A stretch of DNA of 64,000 nt from Candidatus Methylacidiphilum fumarolicum (GTDB taxonomy: Bacteria; Verrucomicrobiota; Verrucomicrobiia; Methylacidiphilales; Methylacidiphilaceae): assembly GCF_949774925.1 (NCBI RefSeq), contig NZ_OX458932.1, positions 2,170,001-2,234,000 of the forward strand. Reading direction: 5' to 3'. The notes under the pieces were generated by a model. It was not told where the DNA came from and searched no databases. It saw nothing but the letters and a program-made list of their open reading frames with translations. The translations under genes and the position numbers were made by a program. Below, one piece after another: positions 4,321-53,560 of this stretch; the stretch's first letter is position 1; each line of letters begins with the position of its first letter.

Positions 4321-4390
4321 AAGTACTTAAATGTTTTTTTTAATATTTTCTGCTCTTGAATAATTTCCATTTTTATTGCATCATTGAAGC

Positions 4391-4717
4391 ATGGAGGAGG
4401 CATTAAAAAAGTCTTTGGATCATTTGGCTCATTGGAGCAGAAGAATTAGCCTCCTCATAGCCATTGCAACCTTGTTGTATTGGATAGTTATTGGTTTTAG
4501 TGAGTTGATATTAAGAGCAAGTGGTAGTGAAACAGAATTTAGCTCTGCTTTGATTGGTTTTTTTACTTTTCTGGGCCTTGTCGCTAATTTTTTTGGTATC
4601 CTGTTTGGTGGCCTTAGTCTTTCATTAAAAGAGATGTTTCGGCCTTCCTGTATCGTTGGTTTCCTTTTAAATGGGCTTTTTTTTGTTGTTGTTCTGGCTT
4701 GTATTCGATTGTTTTAA
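4391..4717 (+). CDS. Small membrane protein of unknown function
   Basis: A 108-residue protein I do not recognise. After a short amphipathic start (about 18 residues) come three hydrophobic segments, at about residues 19-40, 50-78 and 86-107. The protein is therefore almost all membrane. The middle segment is rich in Phe and Gly. It starts 70 bp after the dehydrogenase gene on the same strand and may be cotranscribed with it. The composition looks like real membrane-coding sequence, and no overlapping ORF competes. No catalytic residue or family motif is seen. Confidence 0.6.
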   Translation: MEEALKKSLDHLAHWSRRISLLIAIATLLYWIVIGFSELILRASGSETEFSSALIGFFTFLGLVANFFGILFGGLSLSLKEMFRPSCIVGFLLNGLFFVVVLACIRLF

Positions 4718-4786
4718 AAAACTTCGACCAAATTACCTTTTTATAGAAAACCAACCAGCAACGCCTTAGGAAAAGTTTTCCTAGAG

Positions 4787-5896: not shown

Positions 5897-5971
5897 GTCT
5901 GCAAGATCTGGTCACTTTTGACTTTCTCTTGCAAAGATGTCAACCTTTTTTTCTTTGGAATGGGGAAAAAA

Positions 5972-6748
5972 TCAACTTAAAGCGTTTTCCACTGCTTTTT
6001 TCCAACTCCCAAAAAACCTCTTTTTACAAGCGGCTGCAAAAAGAGCAGGATTAACCTCTCTGACCTTCGTACTCGTTAATGAAATTCCCTTTTCTTTTAA
6101 CGACCTTATCCCTTGAATAATCTGCTCTTTTGACCACCTTTTTCGGTTACGAATCTTATCGTAATCCAAGCCTGCCTGTTCTATTGCCGAAGACCAACTA
6201 CCAAATCTCCTTCGGGCAATAGCGATTAAAGAACTTGCATTCTTTTCCATTTGCTTAGAACTTAAGTCCGCACCCTCTTTATACAATCTTCTAATTTCTT
6301 CAAGAATATTTTCGTTTTTCCAAGATTTATATCTATAAATGTCCTGAGGTGCCAATCCAGCAGCTAGAAGTGCATTTTTCCAACTTCCAAAATAATTGGG
6401 CCGGATAGCCGCATAAACCATAGGCGCGTATTCTCCAAGCATCATGGATCGAAAAGAAAGATCAGTACCTTGGCGATAAAGCTGTTGAATCATCTGAATA
6501 ATCTTTTCTTTCGACCAGGCCTTGTAACGACGGATTTCATCATAAGATAGACCAGCAGCTTCCACCGCTTTCCCCCAATTGCCAAAATATCGAACAGCAG
6601 CAGCAAGAAGTTCCTGATAATGCTTCCTCATGTAATGGGAAAAAAGAGGCTTACCTGCTTCATGCCATTTTTTGATTTCCTCGAGAACCACTGCCTCGGT
6701 CCATTCTTTATTTTTCTTTATAGTTTGGTCTATTGGTTGGGGTTTCAT
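5972..6748 (-). CDS. Protein made of homing-endonuclease-associated (HNH_repeat) repeats
   Basis: About 258 residues made of at least four tandem units of roughly 55-60 residues. Each has a helical KEQIIQ.I..L...G type start and a closing motif like FGSWKKAVEAAGL. This is the homing-endonuclease-associated repeat, thought to bind DNA. No nuclease catalytic domain is present, so I infer a DNA-binding or decoy protein. The reading frame opens further up to an ATG ending at 6796. I prefer the ATG at 6748 because AAAGGTGA lies just before it and the upstream residues look non-coding. Repeats are recognisable at about residues 20-75, 85-140, 150-205 and 210-258. Confidence 0.75.
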   Translation of the reverse strand: MKPQPIDQTIKKNKEWTEAVVLEEIKKWHEAGKPLFSHYMRKHYQELLAAAVRYFGNWGKAVEAAGLSYDEIRRYKAWSKEKIIQMIQQLYRQGTDLSFRSMMLGEYAPMVYAAIRPNYFGSWKNALLAAGLAPQDIYRYKSWKNENILEEIRRLYKEGADLSSKQMEKNASSLIAIARRRFGSWSSAIEQAGLDYDKIRNRKRWSKEQIIQGIRSLKEKGISLTSTKVREVNPALFAAACKKRFFGSWKKAVENALS

Positions 6749-6830
6749 AGAATCACCTTTGAAAGATAAATATTTTAAATTTATATCGTTTGTCAAATAA
6801 ATTTAATAAATTCAAGCTTTCCATAAGCTA

Positions 6831-7787
6831 TTAATTTTCCAAAAGAATCATTAATTTTTTTACAATTAATTCTACCGTTATGCCTGACAAACATTGTAAG
6901 GGAGACTCTTTGTTTAAGCAATTTGCATGCCAACATGGGGAACAAGAAACATCGCTTTGAAGCACAAAGACTTTTCTCCCTATCGGACGAGATTCTGCCG
7001 CATCCGTAGGGCCAAACATCACAAGGGTCGGACATCCTAAAGCGGCTGCCAGATGAGCTGGGCCCGAATCCCCACTTATCATAGCTTTGGCATTGCCTAA
7101 TAAAGCAATTAGCTTTCCTAAAGGAAGTTTTCCACGAAGGTCCGTGCAATTAGCTTCATTGACAGGAAACCATGGTCCTATCCCAACAAAAACAAAATGG
7201 AATTGAGGCAGCCGTAGGGTTAAGGCTTGATAGTTTCTCCAAGGCCAAATTTTGGAAGGCCACCGGGAGTAGGGATGAACGACTATATAGTCTTTTATAT
7301 CTAAAATTGGCGGAAGCAACGGCAACTGAAAAGCATAAGGATCGGGTTGGATTCCTAAGTATCGCAAAAACTCTAGATATCTTTCTTGAGCTGGAGGAGG
7401 GGGAGGCATAATCCGCTCCTTATAAAAGAAAAGAGAGCCTTCCCTCCCATTCCATGGCCCTATCTTTCTTTTTGCTCCACTAAAACCACAGATAATACCA
7501 CTTCGGAAAAGACCCTGGAGATCAAGAACCATATCATAACGCTCTTTTTGAAGCGTCCTAATCAGCTTGATAATCTGAACCAACGATTCTACCATCCCAC
7601 AAGAGGAATAATGTGGGATAGTAAAGACACGAGATATGGAAGGTTGATATTCGAATAGCTCTCTATAATTATCATATGTGACCCAATCGATTTTTGCCGA
7701 AAGAAACTTTTTTAACAGCCCACTAGCTACTGGAAAACATTGAATAATATCTCCAAAGGAACTTAATTTGATGATTAAAATTTTCAT
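6831..7787 (-). CDS. Glycosyltransferase family 9 (ADP-heptose:LPS heptosyltransferase-like)
   Basis: 318 residues with the two Rossmann halves of family GT9. The N-terminus MKILIIKLSSFGDIIQCFP is the typical WaaC/WaaF start with the conserved Ser-Phe-Gly-Asp. The C-terminal half has SGDSGPAHLAAALGCPTLV and FGPTDAAESRP, the nucleotide-sugar site. It probably adds a heptose to the LPS inner core at the cytoplasmic face of the inner membrane. The acceptor (WaaC, WaaF or WaaQ role) cannot be assigned. It lies 42 bp downstream of the metallophosphoesterase gene on the same strand and may share its transcript. Confidence 0.88.
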   Translation of the reverse strand: MKILIIKLSSFGDIIQCFPVASGLLKKFLSAKIDWVTYDNYRELFEYQPSISRVFTIPHYSSCGMVESLVQIIKLIRTLQKERYDMVLDLQGLFRSGIICGFSGAKRKIGPWNGREGSLFFYKERIMPPPPPAQERYLEFLRYLGIQPDPYAFQLPLLPPILDIKDYIVVHPYSRWPSKIWPWRNYQALTLRLPQFHFVFVGIGPWFPVNEANCTDLRGKLPLGKLIALLGNAKAMISGDSGPAHLAAALGCPTLVMFGPTDAAESRPIGRKVFVLQSDVSCSPCWHANCLNKESPLQCLSGITVELIVKKLMILLEN

Positions 7788-9824: not shown

Positions 9825-10685
9825 ATGGATAACAACGATTCTGCTCTCAAACTTTATTTAAGGGAAATAAGCCAGATTCCACTACTGACAAAAGAAAAAG
9901 AAGTGGAATTGGCTAAAAGAATACAACAAGGGGATCAAGAGGCAAGACGGCAAATGATTCAGGCCAACCTCCGGTTGGTCGTGAAGATAGCACATGACTA
10001 TGCCAATAGTGGGTTGCCTCTACCAGACCTTATTTCCGAAGGCAACATTGGACTAATGAAAGCGGTCGATCGCTTCGACCCCTCAAAGGGAGGGAAGCTG
10101 AGCACTTATGCTGCATGGTGGATCAAGCAGTCCATCAAACGGGCTCTAGCCAATCAAAGTAAAACAATTCGCCTTCCAGTCCATCTTGTTGATAAAATCG
10201 CTAAGATGAGAAGGGTAGCCATGCAGCTGTCGGAAGTTCTTGGAAGGGATCCAACAGATGAAGAATTAGCTGAGGAACTTGGCATGTCTACAACCAAAGT
10301 TGCTGAGTTAAGGACGATTGCTATCAGACCCGCTTCTCTCGATGCCACGGTAGGAGAAGAAGAGGATGGTACATCCTTGGGAGAACTAGTTAAGGATGAA
10401 TCAGCAACGAGTCCCGACCAATCTGTTCTTGACCAAAATCTTAAGAATACTATTCTCGAATTGCTGCCTAAGCTCGATGAAAGGGAAAGAAAAATATTAA
10501 GTCTTAGATTTGGGCTAGAAGGCAATGAACAAATGACTTTGGAAGAGATCGGAAAAGAATTTCATGTAACTAGGGAAAGAATTCGTCAACTCCAAAATAT
10601 TGCTTTACGAAAAATTCGAAAAGAGCTAGAAAAACAAGAAAAAGGGAAAAACCGTCTTACGAATAAACAATCCTTAAAAAAATAG
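9825..10685 (+). CDS. RNA polymerase sigma-70 family sigma factor (RpoD/SigA type)
   Basis: 286 residues with regions 1.2, 2, 3 and 4 but no region 1.1 and no long non-conserved insert. Region 1.2 is DSALKLYLREISQIPLLT. Region 2 includes ANLRLVVKIAHDY, DLISEGNIGLMKAVDRFD and the -10 recognition segment STYAAWWIKQSIKRAL. Region 4 has the helix-turn-helix TLEEIGKEFHVTRERIRQL. The short length resembles the compact SigA-like primary or group 2 factors. It may be the housekeeping factor or an RpoS/HrdB-like paralogue, which the window cannot decide. It is followed after 30 bp by apt. Confidence 0.92.
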   Translation: MDNNDSALKLYLREISQIPLLTKEKEVELAKRIQQGDQEARRQMIQANLRLVVKIAHDYANSGLPLPDLISEGNIGLMKAVDRFDPSKGGKLSTYAAWWIKQSIKRALANQSKTIRLPVHLVDKIAKMRRVAMQLSEVLGRDPTDEELAEELGMSTTKVAELRTIAIRPASLDATVGEEEDGTSLGELVKDESATSPDQSVLDQNLKNTILELLPKLDERERKILSLRFGLEGNEQMTLEEIGKEFHVTRERIRQLQNIALRKIRKELEKQEKGKNRLTNKQSLKK

Positions 10686-10715
10686 TAGAAATAAAGGGAA
10701 AATACTCTTTTTCAC

Positions 10716-11255
10716 ATGACCTATGTTTTAAGTAGCTCTATCGAAAGGCTTAAGGAAAAAATTCGAAATATCCCCAATTTTCCCCGTCAGGGAGTACAAT
10801 TCAAAGATATAACCCCTGCAATCGGTGAGGGACAATTCTTTAGATTGATAATGACAATCTTTATTTCTCGTTATCAAAAGAAAAAAATTGATAAAATTGC
10901 TGCAATCGATGCCCGAGGATTTATTTTTGCAGGAGCTTTGGCTCATTCTTTGGGAGTTGGGATTATTCCCATCCGAAAAAAGGGAAAATTACCCTATAAA
11001 ACTTATGAATTGCCTTATAAAAGCGAATATGGGGAAGAAATTTTAACAATACATCAAGACGCCATAACCAAGGGAGAAAGTATCTTAATTATAGATGATG
11101 TGTTGGCAACTGGTAATACAGCGCTTACTGCAGCTTTGCTTATCGAAAAGTGTGGTGGGAATCTAATGGAATTAGGATTTCTTGCTGAGCTGTGTGATTT
11201 AAAAGGGAGAGAAAAGCTTTTCCCATTTCCTTGTTATTCTATTCTTCAGTTCTAG
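10716..11255 (+). CDS. apt: Adenine phosphoribosyltransferase
   Basis: 179 residues. It salvages adenine to AMP with PRPP in the cytoplasm. The PRPP motif is ILIIDDVLATGNTALTA near residue 120, and the adenine-binding start IPNFPRQGVQFKDITP is the classic Apt N-terminus. IDARGFIFAGALA matches the family. It lies 30 bp behind the sigma-factor gene, probably in one transcript. The last native gene before the GC-rich scar, it is intact to its stop. Confidence 0.93.
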   Translation: MTYVLSSSIERLKEKIRNIPNFPRQGVQFKDITPAIGEGQFFRLIMTIFISRYQKKKIDKIAAIDARGFIFAGALAHSLGVGIIPIRKKGKLPYKTYELPYKSEYGEEILTIHQDAITKGESILIIDDVLATGNTALTAALLIEKCGGNLMELGFLAELCDLKGREKLFPFPCYSILQF

Positions 11256-11263
11256 TGATACTC

Positions 11264-11291
11264 CCCTATTGCTAAAGGGGATGGGTATTCT
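11264..11291. other. Hairpin at the apt/scar boundary
   Basis: CCCCT, 7 nt, then AGGGG form a 5-bp stem right after the apt stop, with weaker pairing outside it. No clean T-run follows directly, so it is only a possible terminator or the end of the mobile-element scar. Confidence 0.25.
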
Positions 11292-11518
11292 CCCTCTTTT
11301 AAAAAAATTGAAACCCATCTCTGTTCCTAAAAACATTCTTGGGTCTTGATTACGCCTGATTCGAGTTCGTTCTTTTCGTTCTGGTTTTGGACCGAAATGA
11401 CTCGAGATTACCAATTCCGTTTCGTTCTCCGGAAAAGCGGCGTGGTATTGACGAACCTGAGGCGGAGGGTCCACCGGCGCTCCAACAAGTCGCGATGGCA
11501 ATTACTCCCGTTTCGCGT

Positions 11519-12400
11519 CTACCCGCTGTGGTTATCCGATGGCTGGAGTCTGTCATCCCGGAACAGCCCATCTCGTCGGGTTCCCAATCGTGCGCTTTCC
11601 CGTTCCTGCAGGAAAACCTCTCCAAAAGAATCGCATCCAGCCGGTTTCGCGGCGACCACGACAATATTCTCCCAATCTCCGATCCTTTCCTTGAGGTGGT
11701 ATGCGCCAACCCAATCCGCACGGCTCTCGTACCCGCAATGCAGGTACGCAAACCTGTCTCCGGATCGGTTCTTTGGATGGACATAGCCGCACTTCGAACA
11801 AAGTCAGAGGGTTATAGGCCGGGTTGACCTTTTCTTGAGGGGAACCTCCCGCAGGCGCCAGCGATTCGATTCGATCCCGAAGCATCCCTGTCTGCATCTG
11901 GATGATATGCCGAGAAAGCTCCTTGCTTGGAGAAAGACCCCGAAAGTCGAGGATCTCTGGTGCGATCGCCAAGGGCTTTTGCAATACGAGAAACCGGCGC
12001 AGGCTCATGTTCAGTTACCGCTCTATTTCCACCTGCGCCTCGCGCATCAGCTTTCGGCACTTTTTGTTGTCCAGGTTATTCCTGCGGATCCGCTTGGCCT
12101 TGGACAAGTCCTTGGCGTTCCGCCGGATAGCATAAAAGCTGCCCCGCTTCTCCCCCTTCTCCTTGTGGATGCAAGACAACCGGACGAGCAGCTCGCCGAA
12201 GCCTTTCCCATACTGCTTCCCATGATTGTCGGTAAGGACTTCGGAAAGACCGGCGTCGCTGCCGCCAGCATCGCCTACCGCTTCGGGATCTTCACTGCCT
12301 ATGAATAATGGATCTCCGTACGCCTCTCGTTCAGAGCAAGGCGCATCGTCTGGCAGAACGCTGCGTCCAAAAAGCAAATCGCTTCTCAGTTCCCATCCAT
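11519..12400 (-). pseudogene. tnpB: Broken tnpB (IS200/IS605-family OrfB, RNA-guided nuclease ancestor)
   Basis: Pieces of a TnpB protein appear in order on the minus strand but in different frames, so at least two frameshifts break it. From the 5' side: a RuvC-I region GGSDAGLSEVLTDNHGKQYG; basic helices SKAKRIRRNNLDNKKCRKL; RuvC-II PEILDFRGLSPSKELSRH; then PQEKVNPAY. A zinc ribbon CSKCGYVHPKNRSGDRF follows, and RuvC-III ADWVGAYHLKERIGD. The third zinc cysteine reads Tyr (YLHC instead of CLHC). The N-terminal half beyond about 12400 is no longer recognisable. GC content is far above the neighbours, so it was acquired from elsewhere. Confidence 0.8.
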
Positions 12401-41232: not shown

Positions 41233-44034
41233 ATGTCTAATTGTATTTTCTATTTGGTTTTTTTTCTATGTTTTCCTTTGGTCATTAGTCATCTTCAGGC
41301 TTCTCAAAGTGATAAAGGCATAGATCAAGGTTATAGTTCTACGGGTCTTCGGATTAATTATTCAGAAATACCTGGATATCGTGTAGAAGATATAGTGGTA
41401 GACACAGATTCGGGTGAATTCCCTGTTTCTGGAGCTACAGCCATAGCGATAAACCCAATCGAAGATACCCTGCTACTTTTGACAAGTGGCTACAATAAGC
41501 ATTTTAATCCAAATGGACAAGTCATTCCTGAACAATCTAAAGAACATGTCTTTATTTACGATATCTCCCGAGGCTATCCTCAAAAAATGGCTATGGTGAG
41601 TATCCCCAACTCTTTTATGGGGATTGATTGGAATCCAGATGGGAGAGAATTTTACGTATCTGGTGGTATGGACGATGTCATTTATGCTTTTAAAGGTTTT
41701 GAACAACGTTGGTCCCTTTCTCGTCCTCCTCTTAGCCTTAATCATTCGAAAGGAAATGGTATTGAGACTAAACCAGTTGTTTCTGGCCTTCGAGTCAGTC
41801 CAGACGGGAAATTCCTTGTGGTTGCTAATTTTACTAATGATTCCATTAGCATGATCGATTTGGAAAACTGGAAGAAAATTGGAGAACTTGATCTTCGTCC
41901 TGGGAAAATCGACCCTAGATATGCCGGAACTCCAGGTGGGGAATATCCATTAGACCTCGCTTGGATAGGCAATAATAAAATTTATGTTTCAAGCCTTAGA
42001 GATAGAGAAATAGACATTATCAGCTTCGAAAATAACACCATGAAATTTTCTAAAAGACTATATCTTCAAGGCCAACCCAATCGAATCATTGTCAATAGCA
42101 CTTTTAATCGAGCCTATATTACTGAAGATAATGCTGACCGATTAACTATTGTCGATACAAGCATCGACAAAGTCATAGAATCCATCCCGACAATGGGTCA
42201 ACCTTCTGGAAAGCTACTCCAAGGAGCTGCTCCCAATAACCTCTCACTCGATCCTAGCGGCAAATTCCTTTATGTCACGAATGGTGGAATGAACTGTCTT
42301 TCCCTCATCAAACTAAGCCCCTATGCTCAAGGGATAACAAAAAAGAAAAATCCTCAATTGAAAAGTGAGCTCTTATGCCTCATTCCAACAGGCTGGTATC
42401 CTTCTGCCGTGGGCCTACGATCCGACGGAAAATGGATTTATGTCTGTAATTTTAAAAGCCGATTTGGTCCAAACAATGAACAATGGGAAAAACCAATAGC
42501 TTTAAATAACGAATTTTTTAAAAAGTGGTTATCGAAAAATCAATTTATCCTACAAAAATACTATTCGACTCTTTTGAGCTTTCCTCAACTCAAAGCCAAC
42601 ACCTATAAAACTCTTACGGAAGCTGTCATTGAAAATAATCATCTAAAAGAAGCTTCCAAAGAGCCACCTTCTCTATTTAGCAAGCTCCATGTTCTTGTGC
42701 ATCATGTCCTTTATATTATCAAAGAAAATAGAAGTTACGATCAGCTTTTTGGCGATCTGAAAGCGGGTAATGGAGATCCAGATCTTGCGATTTTAGCACC
42801 CTATGCCCCCAATCACAGAAAACTGGCTTCTCAATTTGTCCTTTTAGACAACTTTCTTGATAGTGGAGAAGTGAGTGGCAATGGTTGGCTTTGGAGTACT
42901 GCAGCGAGGTCTTTAGACATCACAGAAAAAACTGTTCCTCTCCACTATAGTGGCCGTGGCATCACTTATGATTGGGAAGGAATGAACAGAAATATCAATA
43001 TTGGGGAATCGTCTTTTGAATCCAGAAAAAAAGCTGATCCTCTTTTACCCAAAGATCCAGACATTCTCCCAGGGAATAGCGATATTTCTGCTCCCGATGG
43101 ACCAGAAGGAGAGTTAGGGCTAGGTTATCTCTGGGATGAGGCCATAAGAAAAGGAATCTCCATACGAAATTATGGGTTTTTTGGAGATTTGACTCGATAT
43201 CACTTACCAAAAGATCATCCATCATTTATTCCTTTAGCCAGGAATCCCTATAAGGAAAATATCGTTCAATTTTTCCCCACCAAGGCCTCTCTAGCTAAAG
43301 TCAGTGATCTTTTTTACCGCGGATTCGATATGAAATACCCAGATTTTTGGAGGTTTAAAGAATGGGAAAGGGAATTTGATGATTTTGTAAAAAATCACAA
43401 TCTTCCCACGCTGGAACTAATAAGGCTTCCACACGATCATTTTGGATTATTTGGTCAAGGAATAGATAAAATTGATACAGTAGAAACTCAGATGGCAGAC
43501 AATGATTATGCCCTTGGACTCATTGTTGAAAAGATCGCTCATAGCCCTTATAAAGATGACACTCTTATTTTCGTGATTGAAGACGACGCGCAAAATGGGA
43601 TTGACCATGTGGATGCCCATCGAAGCATAGCACTGATTATTGGACCATATGTTAAACAAGGAATTACTATCTCAACTAGATACACGACAATTAATCTTCT
43701 CAAAACCATTGAAAAAATTCTTGGCCTAGGTTCATTATCCGTTTACGACCAATTTTCTCAACCTATGAGCAATATCTTTGATTTGAAACAAAAAAACTGG
43801 TCTTATACAGCAATCATTCCAGAAATACTGAACACGACCGATCTTCCTCTTCCGAACAAAAAATCAGTCCAACATCCAGCGCATGATAGCGCGTTCTGGA
43901 ACGCGTTGATGTCAGAAGAAGATTTTTCTAAAGAAGATCAATTGGATGTCGATCGGTTTAATAAGGCTTTATGGATAGGGTTGAAAGGAAACAATCAACC
44001 CTATCCTCATTTAAAGTTAAAAAATAAGAACTAA
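41233..44034 (+). CDS. Secreted beta-propeller plus phosphoesterase-family protein
   Basis: About 933 residues. A signal peptide opens the protein (about 3-24). A YncE/YVTN-type propeller follows, with units such as VSPDGKFLVVANFTNDSISM, NSTFNRAYITEDNADRLTI and DPSGKFLYVTNGG. From about residue 500 a phosphoesterase (phospholipase C-like) domain begins with VLYIIKENRSYDQLFGDL. DDAQNGIDHVDAHRS near residue 795 carries metal-ligand Asp/His. It is thus a periplasmic or secreted metal-dependent hydrolase. The substrate is unknown. I chose the ATG at 41233, directly before the signal peptide, over a TTG at 41185. Confidence 0.85.
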   Translation: MSNCIFYLVFFLCFPLVISHLQASQSDKGIDQGYSSTGLRINYSEIPGYRVEDIVVDTDSGEFPVSGATAIAINPIEDTLLLLTSGYNKHFNPNGQVIPEQSKEHVFIYDISRGYPQKMAMVSIPNSFMGIDWNPDGREFYVSGGMDDVIYAFKGFEQRWSLSRPPLSLNHSKGNGIETKPVVSGLRVSPDGKFLVVANFTNDSISMIDLENWKKIGELDLRPGKIDPRYAGTPGGEYPLDLAWIGNNKIYVSSLRDREIDIISFENNTMKFSKRLYLQGQPNRIIVNSTFNRAYITEDNADRLTIVDTSIDKVIESIPTMGQPSGKLLQGAAPNNLSLDPSGKFLYVTNGGMNCLSLIKLSPYAQGITKKKNPQLKSELLCLIPTGWYPSAVGLRSDGKWIYVCNFKSRFGPNNEQWEKPIALNNEFFKKWLSKNQFILQKYYSTLLSFPQLKANTYKTLTEAVIENNHLKEASKEPPSLFSKLHVLVHHVLYIIKENRSYDQLFGDLKAGNGDPDLAILAPYAPNHRKLASQFVLLDNFLDSGEVSGNGWLWSTAARSLDITEKTVPLHYSGRGITYDWEGMNRNINIGESSFESRKKADPLLPKDPDILPGNSDISAPDGPEGELGLGYLWDEAIRKGISIRNYGFFGDLTRYHLPKDHPSFIPLARNPYKENIVQFFPTKASLAKVSDLFYRGFDMKYPDFWRFKEWEREFDDFVKNHNLPTLELIRLPHDHFGLFGQGIDKIDTVETQMADNDYALGLIVEKIAHSPYKDDTLIFVIEDDAQNGIDHVDAHRSIALIIGPYVKQGITISTRYTTINLLKTIEKILGLGSLSVYDQFSQPMSNIFDLKQKNWSYTAIIPEILNTTDLPLPNKKSVQHPAHDSAFWNALMSEEDFSKEDQLDVDRFNKALWIGLKGNNQPYPHLKLKNKN

Positions 44035-44054
44035 AAATACTTTCGACAAAGAAA

Positions 44055-44396
44055 TTAAGGAATAATTTCAGCATCCTCAATCAGATGATATCCGTCGGCA
44101 CTGACCAATTTGCCTTTGACTGTGACTTTTTGGTCGGCATACTTTGCGGCTTCTTTCCCTATTGGCTTATGCTCTCCAACAATTATATATAGTTTTCCAT
44201 CTTCTCCCTTCAACCCAGGGGGCAACCCAGCATTAAGACAAGTACGGCCACATTTCATGTGCTTTTCACCACGAGCAGCATGATCAATATAACAGACCAA
44301 ATCGACTAGTTCTCCTTTAACAGTTACCTGTTCAGCTGCAAACAACCAAGAACCCTGAAAAGCAACAAGAATGAGAGCAAAAATAAATTTTTTCAA
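44055..44396 (-). CDS. Small secreted protein of unknown function
   Basis: 113 residues with a signal peptide cut near LFAAEQ. The mature part has two repeats of a beta-rich unit, QVTVKGELVDLVC and KVTVKGKLVSADG, which suggests an OB-like fold. A small loop carries three cysteines (VCYIDHAARGEKHMKCGRTC) with a His between, a possible metal or heme site. This layout resembles small periplasmic proteins found near respiratory genes, but I cannot name a family. It converges with the propeller gene. Confidence 0.7.
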   Translation of the reverse strand: MKKFIFALILVAFQGSWLFAAEQVTVKGELVDLVCYIDHAARGEKHMKCGRTCLNAGLPPGLKGEDGKLYIIVGEHKPIGKEAAKYADQKVTVKGKLVSADGYHLIEDAEIIP

Positions 44397-44550
44397 TGCT
44401 TACCTCCTTGAGAATTAGTAATTTTTGCATTTTTTCATACCATAATATTTTCTCAAAAAAAATAAAATTTAAAAAAATGGACATGAATCCTTATTCCAAA
44501 ATGTTAAACTATTCCAAGCTTATATCTGGCTAATCGAATCCTTTGTCTGA

Positions 44551-45414
44551 ATGAACCAACAAAAGCAGATCAACCTCTTCGTTAGCTTAAGCATTCTGGT
44601 TAATTTCCTTTTGGCTGCTGGAAAAATTTCTTTTGGACTTAGTGGCCATTCTTTTGCTTTAAGTGCCGATGGTCTAGAATCCTTGGCTGATATAGGTTCT
44701 TCATTGCTTGTATGGTTTGGAATAAAAATTTCTCAAATTCCTCCTGACCCTAACCATCCTTTTGGCCATGGGAAAGCTGATCCTATAGCTGCATTTATCG
44801 TCTCCATACTCCTTATGCTTTGCACACTATTCGTATCCATCGAAGCCATAAAAAACTTATGGATTTCCACACCATTGCCTTCCCTTTATACCCTTCCTGC
44901 TATTGGCATAATCGTCATTATAAAAGAGATTTTTTATAGAATCTTTAAGAAACTTGGAGAAAATACCGGCAGTCTTGTTTTATGTGCTGATTCCTGGCAT
45001 CATCGCTCCGATGTGTTATCTTCTTTATCCGCTTTTTTTGGAATTCTTATAGCAGTCGCTACTGGGTTAAAACAGGCGGACAGCATCGCAGCGATCGTAT
45101 CAGCAATAATCATTTTTTGGAACAGCATTCATCTTATTAGACCTTCTTTCCTTGAAATGATGGATACGGCTCCCTCAAAGAACATTGAACAGAAAATCCG
45201 AAATATCGCAGAAGAAGTTCCAGGAGTCATAAAGATTGAAAAATGTAGAATTCGCAAAAGCGGCCACGGTCTACTGATGGATATCCATGTGATGGTATCC
45301 GGCACGCTGACAGTGAGAGAAGGGCATATTATCGGCCATAAAGTTAAAGATAAACTCTGTGCTTCCCCGATGAATATCACCGATGTAGTCGTCCATATCG
45401 AACCGGTAGAGTGA
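44551..45414 (+). CDS. Cation diffusion facilitator (CDF) family metal transporter
   Basis: 287 residues. It exports divalent metals (Zn, Fe, Mn or Co/Ni) against protons. LSADGLESLADIGSSLLV is the transmembrane Asp motif, and PPDPNHPFGHGKADPIAAF is the loop of this subgroup. DSWHHRSDVLSSLSAFFG has the second binding quartet in helix 5. The C-terminal cytoplasmic domain (from about 205) contains HVMVSGTLTVREGHII. It is the last ordinary gene before the GC-rich island, which starts within a few bases of its stop. Confidence 0.92.
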   Translation: MNQQKQINLFVSLSILVNFLLAAGKISFGLSGHSFALSADGLESLADIGSSLLVWFGIKISQIPPDPNHPFGHGKADPIAAFIVSILLMLCTLFVSIEAIKNLWISTPLPSLYTLPAIGIIVIIKEIFYRIFKKLGENTGSLVLCADSWHHRSDVLSSLSAFFGILIAVATGLKQADSIAAIVSAIIIFWNSIHLIRPSFLEMMDTAPSKNIEQKIRNIAEEVPGVIKIEKCRIRKSGHGLLMDIHVMVSGTLTVREGHIIGHKVKDKLCASPMNITDVVVHIEPVE

Positions 45415-45469
45415 TGTGCTTTCCTACTCCGTTGATCTGAAAACTCGCCGCAACCCTCTTCAGGAAGAG

Positions 45470-45898
45470 AATAAGGCACGTCATCCCAGTGTTCTCTGAC
45501 TCTCAATATACTGCCTGATAACGAACAGAAGAGCGCCCCCACAACTCCCGGCGAAATAACTTGGAAACCAGAGATGCCCACCCAAGGGCTTTCAGCGAAT
45601 TTGCCTAAAGTGTTTCTTTCGAAGCAGGCAGCTGGGCAGGCCTTTTCAGACTGTTCTCTAGCGCGGATATGGCCACTTTGGGTGGATAGATCACCAAAAA
45701 GTGCCCATAGACATGTTCCCCGTCAAACTCCAATCATTCGGATTCAAAATCTTTACAGACGAAGTCCATAAACTGGCGCCGGTCTTACAAAATCTCTTTG
45801 GTGAAGATTCCGCACCGATACTTAGTAACAAAGTCTAAATGGACATGAAGGTTATATTCGCAATGTCGACCTCAACGGCTTTCGTTTGACTTTGTCAT
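45470..45898 (-). pseudogene. tnpA: Broken tnpA of an IS200/IS605-type element (Y1 HUH transposase)
   Basis: Reading down the minus strand gives YNLHVHLDFVTKYRCGIFTKEIL and, after a stop, FVCKDFESE. After a second stop comes LEFDGEHVYGHFLVIYPPKVA, then ISALENSLKRPAQLPASK. This follows IS200-type TnpA closely (usual HVVFVTKYRR start and DHVHLLVNYPPK core). The catalytic HUH is damaged: it reads HVYGH. Several stops and a decayed C-terminus make it non-functional. It marks the left edge of the island. Confidence 0.8.
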
Positions 45899-46013
45899 TG
45901 ACCAAGTAGAGACTAAAAAAATTGAAAATTTTCAAATCCTTTCGATTCCTTTTGGAACCCTACCCTGAACAAGACCTGCGCCTCACTCGTTACCGAGGAG
46001 GTGCGCGATGGGT

Positions 46014-46158
46014 TTTTGTATTTGCGCAAACCCTAAAGGCGGCTGGAAAAGCAGGGGATGATCGAGAGGAGCTCCTTGGACAGCTCTTCCTGCGGAGAGA
46101 AGGATTCGCCCGTTCATGACGGAGATTTTGATTCCATGAGACTACCAAAACTTCTCGG
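46014..46158 (+). repeat. Island repeat A, copy 2
   Basis: The second copy of the block at 12763-12910, same orientation. Shared words include GTATTTGCGCAAACC, GTTCATGACGG, TTCCATGAGA and AAAACTTCTCGG-like end sequence. The copies differ by many substitutions and some indels, so the duplication is not recent. It sits between the broken tnpA and nosF. Confidence 0.7.
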
Positions 46159-46295
46159 CGGCGCTCTTCTTACTTTTTGGCGGGTTAGCCGCAAGAGAGT
46201 CCTTGGAAGAAGCCCTTGGACTTTGTGGAAGACCTGTTTCCCATGCTCATCTTTACGGTGCTGGTTAACCCGTATCCCTCTATGGAGAGACTAAC

Positions 46296-47018
46296 ATGGT
46301 CGAAGTAGAAGGCCTTTTCAAGCGCTTCGGTCGGCGGATTGCTCTGAAAAACGTAAGCTTCCGGCTGCAAGAGGGCACCATTACTGCCCTCATCGGTCCC
46401 AACGGTTCCGGGAAGACAACGATTCTTAAAATTCTCTGCTCGTTAGTTCGTCCCGATCGAGGCTCGATTCGACTGGGAGGGAAAGATCCTCGTCGAGATC
46501 CCGAAGTCAGGCGACTGATTGGCTACATGCCGCAGGTCTACGACTTCCCAGAGCATCGAAGCCCAAGCGAGCTCATTCGCTGGCTAAAAGAAATTCGCGC
46601 CCAACCGGCCTCCAGGGAAGAAGATCTCGTTCGGCTCTTCGAGCTCGCTCCCGAAATGAAACGCAGCTTAGGCACTCTCTCCTGGGGAACCCGTGCCAAG
46701 GTTGCCTGCACCCTCGCTCTCATGTTTTCCAGCCCCATTCTTCTTTTGGATGAACCGACCGCTGGTATGGACCCGATCGCATCTACCCGGCTCAAAGACC
46801 TTCTGCGTATGGAACGAGAGGAAGGCAAGACTATCCTGCTCTCCTCTCATTCGATGGCCGATGTTGCGGAGGTCGGAGACCGATTGCTGCTCTTGGAACG
46901 CGGGAACCTCGTTCTTGAGGGAAACCCTAAGAAAATCATGGAAACCGAAAAGGTTCCAACCCTGGAAAGAGCCATTGCGCAAATTTTGGAGAATCGTCGA
47001 CATGGACAAGCTTCGTAA
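46296..47018 (+). CDS. nosF: ABC transporter ATPase of the nitrous-oxide-reductase maturation system
   Basis: 240 residues. Walker A is LIGPNGSGKTTILKILCSL near residue 33. The signature region reads LGTLSWGTRAKVACTLALMF, with SWGTR in place of LSGGQ. That change is typical of NosF, whose usual form is YSKGTRQKV. Walker B is LLLDEPTAGMDPIASTRLKD and the H-loop is SSHSMADVAE. With NosY and NosD it helps deliver sulfur or copper for maturation of N2O reductase. GC content is far above the native genes. It overlaps nosY by 17 bp. Confidence 0.85.
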   Translation: MVEVEGLFKRFGRRIALKNVSFRLQEGTITALIGPNGSGKTTILKILCSLVRPDRGSIRLGGKDPRRDPEVRRLIGYMPQVYDFPEHRSPSELIRWLKEIRAQPASREEDLVRLFELAPEMKRSLGTLSWGTRAKVACTLALMFSSPILLLDEPTAGMDPIASTRLKDLLRMEREEGKTILLSSHSMADVAEVGDRLLLLERGNLVLEGNPKKIMETEKVPTLERAIAQILENRRHGQAS

Positions 47019-47784
47019 TCTTTTTGGCCGCGAGTTCCGCGATGCCCTGCTCCGACCCTGGATATGGGGATCGGCCGTGATCTTTGCGGCGGGGAGTATT
47101 GGTCTGCTGTGGGCAACCGGAGATTCCCGGAAGGCTTTGGCTGCGGTCACCGGGCTCTTTCCCTACTTGGTTTCACTCCTAGGAACACTTGGAGCAGCCA
47201 TTGAGATGGCTGCCGAAAAGGGGTTTTTCGAGCTGGTTTTGCCCCAACCCATCTCCCGTATGATCGTTTTTCAAGCAAAGTTCCTCGCGTTTTCGCTGGC
47301 CTTTGGGTCTGCCCTACTGATCGGCCTTCTTCCGCTTCTTTTTGCTGCCTTCGAGGCGGTGGGGGCACTCGTCCTGAGCTTATTGGTCGGAGCCATCCTA
47401 GCCTTAGCGTGCATTTCGATCGGTTCGGGCTTTCTGTTTTGCCTTTTCTCGCGGGAGCGGGTCGCAGCCGTAGGTGCGGTTCTTGTTCTCTGGCTTTACT
47501 TGGCCTTCCTCCATGACTTGGTGATCCTCTGGGCCTGTAAGATGGGTGGAGGACCGGCTCCAGATCTCCTCGTGATCTCTCTGATCCTGATTAATCCAAT
47601 CGAGGTTGCCCGCCTCGCCGTCGTCCTCCAACTCGACATTGCGGCTCTCCTGGGCATCACGGGCGCCATTCTTTCCCGCTTCTTTAGCGGCAGTGGCTTG
47701 ATCTTCTGTGGAATGGCTCTTGCGCTCTGGATTGTTCTTCTCAACGTCCTGGGAAGCTGGATCTTTTCGCGAAAGGACTTTTAG
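47002..47784 (+). CDS. nosY: ABC transporter permease NosY
   Basis: 260 residues and almost entirely hydrophobic, with about six membrane segments. The start MDKLRNLFGREFRDALLRPWIW is the cytoplasmic lead of NosY. CLFSRERVAAVGAVLVLWLY and FLHDLVILW resemble the usual NosY middle. The protein ends GSWIFSRKDF. The ATG lies inside the last codons of nosF. A longer frame upstream belongs to the nosF sequence read out of frame. Intact, GC-rich. Confidence 0.82.
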   Translation: MDKLRNLFGREFRDALLRPWIWGSAVIFAAGSIGLLWATGDSRKALAAVTGLFPYLVSLLGTLGAAIEMAAEKGFFELVLPQPISRMIVFQAKFLAFSLAFGSALLIGLLPLLFAAFEAVGALVLSLLVGAILALACISIGSGFLFCLFSRERVAAVGAVLVLWLYLAFLHDLVILWACKMGGGPAPDLLVISLILINPIEVARLAVVLQLDIAALLGITGAILSRFFSGSGLIFCGMALALWIVLLNVLGSWIFSRKDF

Positions 47785-47933
47785 CCAATCTTCCACGTGC
47801 GCCGTAACAAAACGTGCATCACGCCTCTGGGAGAAAATAATCAATTCTCCGGTGAATTAACTGAACCTCCGGAACTTTAAACCGCAAGTAATTGCAGCAG
47901 AACGGATATTATTTTTCGTTCTGGCTACGTGGC

Positions 47934-48660
47934 TCACCTGGGCGGGGAAGCGAAGAGAGAGAGCAGATCGATCTTTTGAAGGAGGCCATCAGCTCGGAGG
48001 GAATCCGAGAGAAGAGCTCGATTAGGGGCCGTCCTCTCAGAGAGAATTTGACTAAGCGGATCGCCTAAAGAGGCCAAAGCATCTTGGGCACCTCTAAGGG
48101 AAAGCCCGTGGCCACCCATTCCCCCCTCAAGTAGGTTCCTCATCCAGAAGGCAGATCCAGGTATAGTCACGGACCTGGTCCGGCCGGTTGTAATAGACGG
48201 GATGGACCTCAAGATGACTTTTTAGATCGACGAAGCCCGATTCGACTGAGGCAAGGACCTTGTAGGGCAAGACTTCTGACGCTTCCAGCTGTAAGGCGTT
48301 CAATCGGCTGATCTATCTTGCTAAAAGGATGGCCAGAGGCTTTCGAAGCTTCCGATACCTCATTATTGCCGCCTTCCTCAAAGCAACCCAAGTTGACCCG
48401 CAATGTTGCAGCGATAAAACTGCCAAGAGGCTCCGTGGGCCTCCGCTTCCTACGGTCAAGGAACCCGACGCATGCCAGAAACCGGTAGTCCCGCCGCCAC
48501 GACCGCTACAGCCGTGTAGCCCAAGATCTCCGCATCCAACCACCTGACCTTTTTCGTCGCTCACAAAATTGCCCCCCCTGCGATCCTTCCTCTCTGCTAA
48601 ATCCGTTCCCGCCCCAATCTCATGAACCATCCAGCTCCTCTAGTCCAGGCGGTTATCGCA
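47934..48660 (-). pseudogene. Remnant of a DDE-type transposase (IS1634/IS4-like, tentative)
   Basis: On the minus strand the piece YKVLASVESGFVDLKSHLEV, then HPVYYNRPDQVRDYTWICL, resembles the C-terminal part of IS1634-type transposases. There the usual form is Y..L..VE.AFR.LK..L.VRPV....D..RGH. Upstream frames read DEKGQVVGCGDLG and similar fragments with no clear match. Stops and frame changes show it is dead. The family call rests on one stretch only. Confidence 0.4.
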
Positions 48661-48685
48661 CTTCTCTGTGACGCCTTCATCTTTT

Positions 48686-48749
48686 ATGTTTGACGTAAAT
48701 TTATTATAATGATAATTTTATTAATAATGTTATTACAATTAAGACCACC
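48686..48749 (+). promoter_or_regulatory. AT-rich likely promoter of the nosB-like gene
   Basis: About 60 bp of very AT-rich DNA in an otherwise GC-rich island. TTGACG is followed 17 nt later by TAATTT, and TATAAT also occurs within the spacer. The sharp composition change suggests a native-type promoter or an inserted short AT segment. Pattern match only. Confidence 0.35.
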
Positions 48750-49559
48750 ATGAAAAAAAGGATGCAAGTCTTCCTGATAGGGTTGATATCGGTGTTTGTT
48801 CCCCCGCTTTTTTTCTCCCAGGGACAAACACAGGAGGCTAACACTCCTCCTGCCCAATCCCAATCCACAACCCCCTCTCCAGAGCAAGACAAAGGGATTG
48901 GTCCTATCCGTGAAGACGTCATGGGCAATAGGGTGCCGCGCAAAGAGGGGCAGCTGGTACGATCGGGAATGGTCGTTGCCGGATGCTTGACCCTCCTTGC
49001 CCTCTTCTTCCCTCTTTGGCATATCACCCTCACCGCGCCTCAGTATCCCGAAGGGCTTTCGCTAGAAATTTGGGCCCACACCATTCGTGGTAGCACCCCT
49101 TATGATCTGGGCAACATCAACCTCTTGAATCACTATATCGGAATGCAGTCTATCAATCCGGACCTGGTCCCAGAGCTCAAACTCGGTCGGCCTATCTTGG
49201 TTGCTCTCGCTCTCTTCGCTTGGCTTACCGCCCTGGCCAATTCGCGAAGGCTTGCGTGGATCTGGATTGGTCTGACCGTAGCTCTTTGCCTCGCGGTTGC
49301 CATCGACTTCTACCGATGGGAATACGATTACGGACATCATTTGGATCCGCATGCAGCGATACAAATCCCTGGCATGGCTTATCAGCCTCCCTTCTTCGGC
49401 AGCAAACACCTTCTCAATTTTGTGGCGACTTCACTGCCAGCGGCGGGAAGCTACCTGATCCTCGCCGCACTGCTGATTGCCGCTTGGTCCGCAAAAAGTA
49501 AGCACGCGGCTTCCCGAGCATTTACTTCCCTTTTCCGCTTCAGGCGAACTACGGGTTAG
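48750..49559 (+). CDS. nosB: NosB-like membrane protein of clade II nos clusters
   Basis: 269 residues. A signal segment (6-24) is followed by a Pro/Gln/Thr-rich linker. Then come about four membrane helices at roughly 70-92, 148-165, 170-190 and 235-255. The motif YDLGNINLLNHYIGM near residue 122 and the stretch IPGMAYQPPFFGSKHLLNF near residue 210 are what I recall from the NosB membrane proteins of clade II nos clusters. Their function is not known. No fusion or truncation seen. GC-rich. The name rests on memory of the family, not on a search. Confidence 0.65.
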   Translation: MKKRMQVFLIGLISVFVPPLFFSQGQTQEANTPPAQSQSTTPSPEQDKGIGPIREDVMGNRVPRKEGQLVRSGMVVAGCLTLLALFFPLWHITLTAPQYPEGLSLEIWAHTIRGSTPYDLGNINLLNHYIGMQSINPDLVPELKLGRPILVALALFAWLTALANSRRLAWIWIGLTVALCLAVAIDFYRWEYDYGHHLDPHAAIQIPGMAYQPPFFGSKHLLNFVATSLPAAGSYLILAALLIAAWSAKSKHAASRAFTSLFRFRRTTG

Positions 49560-49582
49560 AGAAGCTATTAGACGGGTGTATT

Positions 49583-50581
49583 ATGATTTCAATAATGCGA
49601 AGCTTCGCTTCATTACCATCTCGCTGGCTTGGGTTTCATTTGCTCCTAGTCCCCCCTCTACTGCTTCCTTCCGCCGTTCAGGCTCGAAGTTGGATCGTCT
49701 CCCCTCAGGGGGGAGACTTTTCCACTTTGCGGAGCGCCCTCGCCGCAGCGCAGCCGGGTGATCGACTTGTCCTGCAGTCCGGCGTCTATCGAGAAGGCCC
49801 GCTCCTAATCCGAAGCCCAATTGTAATCGAAGGAGAAGGATGGCCCGTGATCGACGGGGAAAAACGTTACGAGATGCTCCGGATTGAGTCCGACGGTGTC
49901 CGGATCTCGGGCATCGTTTTCCGAAATTCCGGCATGAGCTACTCGATCGACATCGCCGCCCTTAAGCTCCTTAAAGGGAAAAACTGCCAAATCGAGGCCA
50001 ACCGGTTTGAAAACAACTTCTTTTCGATCTACTGCGCGAATGCCCAGGAATGCACGGTGGCAAACAATGAGATTGTGGGACATGCGATTTCCGAAGGCGC
50101 TTCGGCCAATGGAATTCACCTTTGGAGTTGCCAGCGGATGAAGATCCATGGGAATCGCGTGCAAGGGCATCGAGATGGTATCTATTTCGAATTCGTGACG
50201 GAAAGTCTTGTCGAGGGGAATCAGTCGATTGGTAATCTCCGTTATGGACTTCACTTCATGTTCTCCAACGATGATGTCTATCGAACGAACCTCTTCGAAC
50301 GAAACGGAGCCGGCGTTGCCGTGATGTTTTCCAAGCGAATCCTTATGGAAGGCAATCAATATCGGAACAACTGGGGGCCAACAAGCTACGGGCTACTTCT
50401 CAAGTCCATTGACGACAGCCTCATTCGGCGGAATCTTTTTGTCCGCAACACAACGGCGATCCGATTCGACGAGGCTATTAGGAATAAATTGAAAATTTTA
50501 TATTTCTTTACAAGCGGGCTTTTGGTCTTATGTAGTCATCTATTTTTAACTAAACTCTTAGCTGAAAAAAAAACACAGTAG
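49583..50581 (+). pseudogene. nosD: 3'-truncated nosD
   Basis: The frame codes 332 residues. A signal peptide (about 12-33, ending VQARS) and a right-handed parallel beta helix of the NosD/carbohydrate-binding CASH type run to about residue 300. Typical parts are DFSTLRSALAAAQPGDRLVL, NGIHLWSCQRMKIHGNRVQG and DGIYFEFVTESLVEGNQSIG. NosD normally has over 400 residues and loads or assists copper-site assembly in N2O reductase. At about 50480, after TTAIRFDEAIRN, the DNA turns AT-rich. The last 30 residues (LKILYFFTSGLLVLCS) do not belong to NosD. The 3' end was lost in a rearrangement. Confidence 0.8.
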
Positions 50582-50675
50582 AGCAAGTTTTTTACTGTTG
50601 TTGTAAAAACGGTTCGTGGAATAATGGCTTCTGTAGGGAGCAAGAAAAGACACTAACCAGCCGAAAGGCAAAAAG

Positions 50676-50854
50676 TTTCCTTCAGTCGCAGGGCTGAGGC
50701 CTCGTATAAGTAACGCTCGACGAGGGCATTGGACATTCAACCAACAAGTTCCCTCAGCTGCAAAGCTGATGCTTCGTTTAAGCGTTGCAGGGGTTATTGC
50801 CTGGAGCGAAATTATCACCTTCCCTCTGCTGATAAGCTGAGGCTTCGTTTATTT
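50676..50854 (-). CRISPR. Degenerate three-repeat CRISPR array
   Basis: Three 36-nt units at 50676-50711, 50748-50783 and 50819-50854, separated by 36-nt and 35-nt unique spacers. The first unit matches the second at 27 of 36 positions, and the third matches the second at 28 of 36. Read on the minus strand, each unit carries a hairpin: CCTCAGC, 6 nt, GCTGAGG in consensus. It ends in GGGAAC-like sequence, as CRISPR repeats often do. The drift among repeats says the array is dead or is the trailing end of a longer one. No cas gene is in the window. Confidence 0.7.
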
Positions 50855-50966
50855 CCATGCTGTTAAAGCACAGCGGGGAATTTTTTGTTAACCTGAATTA
50901 AAACGAAAAAAGAAAGAAAATATAGGAGACTTCAGCCTATCGAATAAGGAAGGCAAAATTTACATA

Positions 50967-51131
50967 ATGATTAAGGGAAGAGTTGTTAATGATGAAGGGA
51001 ATCCTTTTAATCCTAACAGCTCATTAGTATTCTGTGCTCGGCTGACCTCTTCCGCGCTCGTTTTAGAGCTTCGTCACAATGACAAAATAGTTTGCTTTTT
51101 CTTACCTCCGGATATGAAACTTGCAAAATAG
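50967..51131 (+). CDS. Small ORF of unknown function near the CRISPR remnant
   Basis: 54 residues from an ATG, starting MIKGRVVNDEGNPFNPNSS. An AGGAAGG lies some 17 nt upstream, too far for a good ribosome site. It is not recognised. A second open stretch in another frame follows (to 51357: LQNSVSLLLTESLPFNFSF...), and together they may be a frameshifted longer gene. AT-rich, unlike the nos genes before it. Confidence 0.3.
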   Translation: MIKGRVVNDEGNPFNPNSSLVFCARLTSSALVLELRHNDKIVCFFLPPDMKLAK

Positions 51132-51376
51132 TGTTTCGCTGTTGTTGACAGAAAGCCTGCCATTCAATTTTTCCTTTTTAGGTAGTTTTTTTCCTATATC
51201 AACTCCGCGGAAAAAATGGCTTATACAAGGAAATAAGAATTCTATATCTGGTAGTTATGGTAGTCAGGATGCTATCTACCCCGCTTTGACAGGCGAATTT
51301 ACAAGTTTTTCTATCTCCTCTTCCGAAGACTCATACAAGTATCGTGCAAAGATATAAACTTTATAAAGCTTCCCCC

Positions 51377-51937
51377 CTATTCGGATATTCTTTGTTGGAG
51401 ACTTATTCTTACCTTTGCCCTGCCATCCAAGAAGAATACTTCATTAACAAATATTTTTTCTGCAATTCTTGAATTCGGTCGTTCTAATTCTTCCTCACAG
51501 AATTTGTCGTAACCTCTTTTTGTCATCATTACTTCATTTTCTCTAATCATCCCAAACAGCGGTTCTTCCACTCCTGCATCATTTCCATTTTTCTCATCTT
51601 TGTTTACGAAGTGCCTTATATTTCCCCTAACAAATTCCTTTAGTTTTTTTGAAACCGTTTTAGCGCGCTCTAGTGGCGGGAGGCTTGGTATCCTGTTACC
51701 TGCATTAGCTAACCTGAGGAAAAAGTTTATTTGGGCTCTTCTTCTTTCTTGCTTTTCTTGCCGTTTTCTACACTCTTCCTCTACCTTTTGTTCAACCTTT
51801 CGCTTTCTTTTGTAAGCTTCCTTTTGCCTCGCAAATTCTAAAATCCTTGCCTCTTTCCACTGTATTAATAGTTCTTGTTTAGATGTTTTTTTCTGCCACC
51901 GGTTTGTAAAATTTCGTTTTGCGGGCAGCTCCCCTTC
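51377..51937 (-). pseudogene. Open frame without a start, unknown family
   Basis: 187 codons stay open on the minus strand after a stop at 51938-51940, but the first usable start is a GTG at 51571, deep inside. Before it the frame reads a charged helical stretch (QWKEARILEFARQKEAYKRK and KVEEECRKRQEKQERRRAQI). After it comes KRGYDKFCEEELERPNSRI. This is coding-like and low in stops, so it is probably a gene that lost its 5' end or its frame. An ATG in another frame about 10 nt upstream of the open stretch could be the original start. I do not recognise the family. Confidence 0.4.
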
Positions 51938-51964
51938 TCACCATTTTGCACTACTTTTAGTTTA

Positions 51965-52071
51965 GGCTCCGACCAATCAGCACGTCAAACTTCTTCGTCG
52001 AATATAGGTTCGCCATGCCTGTTTATAACTAGATTGGCATGGCAAGATCAATAACTATCCATTACTCCCTA
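51965..52071 (+). repeat. Island repeat B with 8-bp hairpin, copy 2
   Basis: The second copy of 13281-13388. The hairpin arms are GCCATGCC (52012-52019) and GGCATGGC (52036-52043) with a 16-nt loop. It ends 7 bp before the 3' end of the ybbN-like gene. In both copies the unit marks the right edge of a GC-rich island. Confidence 0.75.
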
Positions 52072-52077
52072 TCCCTC

Positions 52078-52887
52078 TTAAACATTGACAGCTGTAGAGA
52101 AAGCTCGGCTGTATTTTAAAGAAAGTGGGTGTCTTGGACCAAGATATCGAAATAAGTTACGAACCGCCTTTAAGACCAATCCTTCTCCAATATTCTTATT
52201 TATATGCAACAGAGAAATCCAATTAAACAGTCCTTTTTCTATATCCAATTTTTTAATTGCTTCTAACCCCTCCACAAATCGTATTTTTTCTTCTGTTTCG
52301 CCCAATTTTTCTATTTCCATTCCAAGCAATAAAGTTCCAAGACATTTGATTGCCTCATAGATGGATGGATCTTCCGATTCAATTTCAGGTTGGAGAACTG
52401 ACAACGCTTTTTGCGGATCGGACAATAGAAGGAATTTCGCATAGATTAAAAACTCTTGGGGATTCTCTGGCTTTTCCTTTTCTTTTTCAAAAGCCACGAT
52501 CGCCTCATGGAACTTACCCTGCTCAAATAAATCAAGAGCTGTTTTCCATTTTGTCTTCTGCCCCTTTTGACTCAAATTTTTCTCCAGCCAACTCTTAATT
52601 GCTGCTTTAGGTTGCAAACCAACGAAGCGGTCTTTTTCCTCCCCATCAACAAATATCCTCACATCGGGAATTCCACTCACTCCGTAGGCTACAGCCACTG
52701 CTTCTTGTTCATCTACATTCACTTTTGCTAGATCCCATTTTCCTTGCGCTTCGGCTGCCAACTCTTCTAGCAGGGGAGACAACATGCGGCAGGGACCGCA
52801 CCACGCTGCCCAAAAGTCCACCACAACAGGGATGGTTTTGCTTCTATGGATAACTTCTTGTTCAAAATCGTTTACATCGAAAATCAT
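52078..52887 (-). CDS. Thioredoxin-fold co-chaperone (YbbN/CnoX-like)
   Basis: 269 residues. An N-terminal thioredoxin domain (about 1-105) has VVDFWAAWCGPCRMLSPLLE with the full CGPC active site, and SGIPDVRIFVDGEE with the cis-Pro. The C-terminal 160 residues are helical TPR-like repeats (ALDLFEQGKFHEAIVAFEKE). This is the YbbN/CnoX layout, a chaperedoxin that guards proteins from oxidation. E. coli CnoX has lost redox activity (SXXC), but here CGPC is intact. It lies 10 bp behind the methyltransferase gene. Confidence 0.9.
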   Translation of the reverse strand: MIFDVNDFEQEVIHRSKTIPVVVDFWAAWCGPCRMLSPLLEELAAEAQGKWDLAKVNVDEQEAVAVAYGVSGIPDVRIFVDGEEKDRFVGLQPKAAIKSWLEKNLSQKGQKTKWKTALDLFEQGKFHEAIVAFEKEKEKPENPQEFLIYAKFLLLSDPQKALSVLQPEIESEDPSIYEAIKCLGTLLLGMEIEKLGETEEKIRFVEGLEAIKKLDIEKGLFNWISLLHINKNIGEGLVLKAVRNLFRYLGPRHPLSLKYSRAFSTAVNV

Positions 52888-52897
52888 AAGATTCCTT

Positions 52898-53560
52898 CTA
52901 GTTTTTCTTTCTAGCGATCACCACTCCATCGGCTATAGGAAGGAGTACCGATTCAATTCTAGTATCGTTGCTTAGTTTGTCGTTGAGTCTACTCAACACA
53001 AGAGAATCTTTATCAGAGTCTTCAGGACGAATCACCCTTCCTTTCCAAAACATGTTGTCGAATACAAGGAGTCCATTCTGTCGCATTTTAGGCAATAACA
53101 ATTCATAATAATTCTCATAATTTTCTTTATCCGCATCAATAAAAGCAAAATCAAACCGTAAATCCTCTTCCAAATCTTGAATGGTTTTTAATGCAGGACC
53201 GATTTTCACTTCTATTTTATGTTCCAACCCAGCTTCTTTCCAATATTTAGATGCCAATGCAATCCACTGAGGATTAATTTCACAACAAACAAGCTTTCCA
53301 GATTGAGCTAATGCCCTTGCAATGGCTATGGAACCAATCCCTGTAAAGGTTCCCACTTCTATCGCAGTCTTTGCATTACATGCCGCAACCAGTATCGAGA
53401 GGAAACTTTCTTCCTCTGGAGGAATAGCCATCTCAGAAATTTCTCCTAATGCCAGGGTCTCTCTCCGAAGCTTTTGCATTAAAGGATCGGAAGCATAAGT
53501 CCTATGGCAAATGGCATAATCGTAAAGTTCTTTGGTTATGGGATAAAAAGTCAAGCTCAT
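52898..53560 (-). CDS. SAM-dependent O-methyltransferase (caffeoyl-CoA type)
   Basis: 220 residues, class I methyltransferase fold of the O-methyltransferase family 3. The SAM loop is AIEVGTFTGIGSIAIARAL near residue 65, and acidic CCEINPQ ends strand 2. DFAFIDADKENYENYYELLL carries the metal-ligand Asp. LLVFDNMFWKGRVIRPE is the typical later motif. The substrate may be a catechol, but it cannot be told here. It shares its strand with ybbN and proC at 10-bp and 17-bp gaps. Confidence 0.9.
   Translation of the reverse strand: MSLTFYPITKELYDYAICHRTYASDPLMQKLRRETLALGEISEMAIPPEEESFLSILVAACNAKTAIEVGTFTGIGSIAIARALAQSGKLVCCEINPQWIALASKYWKEAGLEHKIEVKIGPALKTIQDLEEDLRFDFAFIDADKENYENYYELLLPKMRQNGLLVFDNMFWKGRVIRPEDSDKDSLVLSRLNDKLSNDTRIESVLLPIADGVVIARKKN

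Follow-up and report, generated by a model that had tools for sequence, protein, structure and literature searches.

The nos genes of the 64,000-nucleotide stretch analysed here (the window, C1:2170001-2234000 of a complete, single-contig M. fumariolicum genome of 2,476,671 bp) are very probably the non-functional remnant of a clade II nos cluster that was acquired horizontally and inserted between the genes for a CDF transporter and a thioredoxin. The cluster is of the type carried by STC_89, a Candidatus Methylacidiphilaceae bacterium of the same family but another genus (JAQUAR010000214.1 and G012:C188), represented by a fragmented, low-coverage MAG in which nosZ is split over two contigs. 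The preliminary description of this DNA had placed nosF, nosY, a NosB-like protein and a truncated nosD in one GC-rich block, as is borne out by their coordinates, by a match of nosD to positions 1-255 of the 377 of TIGR04247 and by a GC content of 50-56%. Its "NosB", though, is a fusion of nosC with nosB, and the 3' end of nosD survives elsewhere in the block. Compared with a functional clade II cluster, the window has open nosF and nosY frames and a nosB fused to the start of nosC, and is without nosZ, a full-length nosD, nosL or the order Z-B-D-F-Y.

Split nosD, gene order and loss of nosZ

The nos features, in order along the window, are:

46208-46310, plus strand: nosD 3' end, the last 33 codons and stop (KKPLDFVEDLFPMLIFTVLVNPYPSMERLTWSK)
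46296-47018, plus strand: nosF, ABC ATPase of 240 aa, frame intact; 80% amino acid identity to STC_89 NosF; ABC_tran E 2.6e-27
46996-47784, plus strand: nosY, ABC permease of 262 aa, frame intact; 74% amino acid identity to STC_89 NosY
48750-48916, plus strand: nosC 5' end, about 55 codons including the signal peptide and SPEQDKGIGPIRE, continuing in frame into nosB
48917-49559, plus strand: nosB, fused to the nosC start, with nosZ deleted at the join; 76-77% identical to NosB of STC_89, beginning at the start codon of the latter
49583 to about 50493, plus strand: nosD 5' part, about 300 codons (the first two thirds); the ORF continues to 50581 in unrelated AT-rich DNA

The two parts of nosD are the key to the arrangement. 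The front part lies 3.3 kb downstream of the tail, after nosB, and about 270 bp of the middle is absent; its homology to STC_89 stops at about 50493, and its TIGR04247 score of 274 bits, against a cut-off of 300, marks it as less than full-length. The tail scores 108 against STC_89 NosD, the best of 2000 shuffles reaching 48. The 3' end of nosD and the 5' end of nosF overlap in STC_89, and the tail in the window overlaps nosF identically; nosF must therefore once have come after nosD, and the order with F-Y first is not ancestral. The rearranged order noted in the preliminary description is thus real, and is explained by an exchange of places between D3'-F-Y and C-B-D5', in effect a circular permutation broken within nosD. 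That F-Y-B-D is instead an inherited, native order seems extremely improbable: F-Y does precede Z-B-D in one of the 80 NosB-bearing loci fetched (uncultured Pontibacter sp., L149), but Z-B-D-F-Y is found in 68 of them, and in the window the end of nosD stands directly before nosF, with the overlap exactly as in STC_89.

The 269-aa "NosB" ORF (48750-49559) begins with a NosC leader and the NosC-typical SPEQDKGIGPIRE and continues as NosB from the start codon of the latter. Its nosC portion is 43-44% identical to residues 1-64 of STC_89 NosC, and DKGIG is shared with the NosC of M. caldifontis IT6 (G002). A single deletion of about 2.3 kb, a size deduced from how long the genes are in STC_89 and IT6, removed nosZ entirely together with the haem domain of nosC, leaving an open fusion and accounting for the absence of nosZ. 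Profile searches of the whole genome found neither nosZ nor nosL, both described earlier as missing: TIGR04246 gives only short C-terminal CuA (COX2-like) matches, the best at 50.7 bits against a cut-off of 625, and PF05573 has no match anywhere in the single contig. The absence of nosL is no sign of loss, since the STC_89 cluster runs from nosB to nosD without nosL there.

As we reconstruct its history, a cluster with the ancestral order nosC-Z-B-D-F-Y would have been acquired horizontally and have entered the Methylacidiphilum chromosome at the CDF/thioredoxin junction. The swap may then have come about when a circle was excised and re-integrated, or when a tandem duplication lost part of its sequence at both ends, with IS elements possibly supplying the ends for the rearrangement. 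The deletion that removed nosZ would have come after the swap or together with it, and today's products would have no role in N2O reduction.

Insertion site, mobile elements and composition

45437-52066, no strand assigned: the whole inserted island, 6.6 kb, between the CDF-transporter and thioredoxin genes
45429-46013, minus strand: IS200/IS605-type remnant with Y1 transposase; 80% DNA identity to C1:713419-714016 and two more copies; ORF matching PF01797
46014-46158, no strand assigned: repeat-element end 1, pairing with 51896-52068; about 20 genomic copies
47851-48250 (approximate), minus strand: DDE transposase remnant, C-terminal end (IS4/IS1634-like); 75-76% identical to about 12 genomic copies
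48294-48400, plus strand: ISL3-type transposase 3' end (DDE_Tnp_ISL3 tail); 85-88% DNA identity to many G007/G008 copies
50677-50851, plus strand: three degenerate CRISPR-like repeats of 32 nt with 71-72 nt spacing, in AT-rich DNA to the right of the nosD break
51896-52068, no strand assigned: repeat-element end 2, partner of 46014-46158; about 20 genomic copies

The CDF (44551-45414) and thioredoxin (52078-52887) genes adjoin each other in all four of the other Methylacidiphilum species searched (G001-G004), and in G001 and G004 the homologous ends of the empty site are about 130-145 bp apart. Homology to these two genomes ends at 45436 and restarts at 52066-52075, so the 6.6 kb between must be an insertion. 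The nos block has a GC content of 50-56%, and the island as a whole 53%, against about 39% in the surrounding DNA (the genome of M. fumariolicum SolV has 41.5%; PMC4210602). With an empty site in relatives, deviant composition and mobile elements, the segment has the marks of a genomic island and appears to have been acquired horizontally.

One copy of a repeat element has the nos island between its two ends. Elsewhere in the genome these ends, which are similar in about 20 copies, lie about 300-370 bp apart and the whole element measures about 600-620 bp; a TnpB (Cas12f1-like TNB) gene adjoins one copy, and by inference the element is probably IS607-like. The outer parts of the island are worn IS material. 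The dead transposase reported between the F-Y and B-D pairs is indeed there, as the minus-strand DDE remnant, a full-length genomic copy of which encodes 551 aa (DDE_Tnp_1). The ISL3 tail beside it has one match in its own genome, at 83%, and belongs to a transposase family abundant in the sister genus; this also appears to point to the genus of STC_89 as the source.

The CRISPR-like repeats beside the truncated nosD are of the GTTCCCTCAGCTGAAGAGCTGAGGCTTCGTTTAAG type, for which a better array, of five copies, lies at C1:66212-66529. Within the island, 51377-51896 is AT-rich DNA and contains a short ORF of 64 aa on the minus strand that has no family match; Rfam families gave no match across 44000-53000.

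Relationship to STC_89 and IT6, and N2O reduction

The nos genes of the window are 73.6-80% identical to those of STC_89, with the differences mostly at third codon positions. Among 60 relatives and the GTDB r220 contigs, STC_89 has the nearest NosB, at 76-77% identity, with the next match at 55%. Trees of NosB, of NosF and of four concatenated genes all make the relic and STC_89 sisters with 100% SH-aLRT support. A placing of nosF and nosY among unrelated ABC exporters, on which the preliminary description would have been abandoned, is rejected by their location, by the way the nosD tail overlaps nosF and by the NosF tree; the match of nosY to PF12679 (E 9e-6) lies below the cut-off. The STC_89 cluster is read from two contigs, one with an integrase upstream of nosC and nosZ, the latter running to the contig end, and the other with nosZ-nosB-nosD-nosF-nosY followed by a transposase. 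It shares with the window its genes, the nosD-nosF overlap and, ahead of nosC, a related transposase remnant, but its nosC and nosD are complete, nosZ is present and the order is the standard nosC-Z-B-D-F-Y, whereas in the window the genes are shuffled, nosD is truncated, nosZ is deleted altogether and nosC has lost most of its length. The genus of STC_89, to which G007 and G008 also belong, is by inference probably Methylacidimicrobium.

The preliminary description thought N2O use by an acidophilic verrucomicrobial host worth remark. Such use has already been shown for a methanotroph of this kind, M. caldifontis IT6, which grows on N2O, with a functional nos cluster different from the one in the window (PMC11102522). 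The IT6 cluster, laid out nosCZBLDFYC inside alternative complex III genes, resembles the relic in genus, clade II type and the basic order Z-B-D-F-Y; it differs in its Aquificota-like sequences, in its site in the genome and in having nosZ, nosL and two nosC genes. Descent of the relic from this same Aquificota-derived cluster, passed down within the genus but lost from M. fumariolicum, is disfavoured and very unlikely. The genus is shared, the AU test does not reject a grouping of relic, STC_89 and IT6 as a clade (p 0.50), and PMC11102522 suggested that M. fumariolicum acquired the cluster and then lost key genes. Against this, the relic is 74-80% identical to STC_89 while its NosB is just 46% identical to that of IT6, NosF of IT6 and STC_89 share 38%, PMC11102522 gives 72-92% identity of the IT6 genes to Hydrogenobacter, the two clusters occupy different genome sites and nosL is lacking from the relic. 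The origin in an STC_89-type cluster would mean a second nos lineage in Methylacidiphilaceae, beside the Aquificota-derived one of M. caldifontis.

Reduction of N2O by the nos genes of the window is not expected from their predicted products, because NosZ, NosL and the haem domain of nosC are absent and NosD is truncated. This agrees with reports on M. fumariolicum SolV, which converts nitrite to N2O and whose genome is without an N2O reductase (PMC5623727); the broken cluster helps explain how the strain can produce N2O with no known route for its removal. A 2024 paper (PMC11102522) already noted for M. fumariolicum the lack of nosZ and the presence of some accessory nos genes, very probably the same genes as those in the window; in the accessible part of that paper the remark comes without a map, a donor, the fusion, the split nosD or the second relic. 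In the open literature searched, the supplement of PMC11102522 apart, we found no publication describing the nosC-nosB fusion, the split in nosD, an STC_89-type origin or a second relic. The present analysis turns the published remark into a stepwise account of the loss of an N2O sink. It also implies that matches to nosB, nosD or nosF markers in such genomes do not amount to N2O reduction, one "NosB" being the product of a deletion fusion.

A second nosFY relic and probable past selection on nosF and nosY

The only other nos sequence found in the genome is a nosFY pseudogene at C1:1566207-1567373 (minus strand), 83% identical in DNA to 46681-47858 of the window, broken by several frameshifts and deletions and more decayed than the window copy. 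Of the two readings offered in the preliminary description, a second complete cluster elsewhere or a relic left by a lost locus for N2O respiration, the latter stands; no second complete cluster was found, this decayed nosFY being all that the searches gave in the rest of the genome.

When STC_89 serves as the outgroup, 130 changes fall on the pseudogene branch, distributed 44/46/40 by codon position and accompanied by frameshifts, as in neutral decay. The window nosFY branch has 41 (p 6e-12 for the difference), distributed 15/7/19 and with no break in the frame; under the mutation spectrum of the pseudogene, the joint probability of so few second-position changes and the lack of any stop is about 0.012. 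The open frames of nosF and nosY and the depletion at second positions count against reading the locus as a plain relic. Judged from these weak signs, the window nosFY was probably under selection for some of its past, perhaps before nosZ was lost. Third positions differ as well (19 vs. 40, p 0.009), so that an unequal age or history of the two copies is possible. Signs of past selection do not establish present function.

It seems very unlikely that the NosFY transporter and the NosC-NosB fusion were retained after the loss of NosZ for some other job, such as supplying copper or sulfur species to another cuproenzyme. The open frames, the intact Walker motifs and the low number of changes, with few at codon position 2, would fit such a role; NosD, the partner of NosFY, is truncated, however, the third-position difference allows for copies of different history or age, and the island is missing from the other four Methylacidiphilum species. 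In its specific form, a repurposed periplasmic copper/sulfur supply route still under selection, we consider the idea very improbable. The non-functional remnant remains the preferred reading.

The second relic lies in an insert of its own. A 1,362-bp mutY-rnhC segment, which occurs once and uninterrupted in G001 and G004, is present twice (99.8% identical) around the nosFY pseudogene and an adjoining integrase remnant, which is 66% identical to the integrase upstream of STC_89 nosC. No tRNA attachment site was found near that integrase or near the second relic; the duplicated flanks may reflect single-crossover integration of a circular molecule. In C1:1557000-1569000 the two mutY-rnhC copies are at 1325-2686 and 10372-11733. 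Between them, in about 7.7 kb, are the integrase remnant, the nosFY pseudogene, a gene for a CRP-type regulator and two for cytochrome oxidase. The regulator and the genes for the two-subunit haem-copper oxidase (3657-6918 of the same segment) have no match at the 81% level in other Methylacidiphilum genomes apart from that of IT6, to which they are 81% identical (G002:C1:145350-148628).
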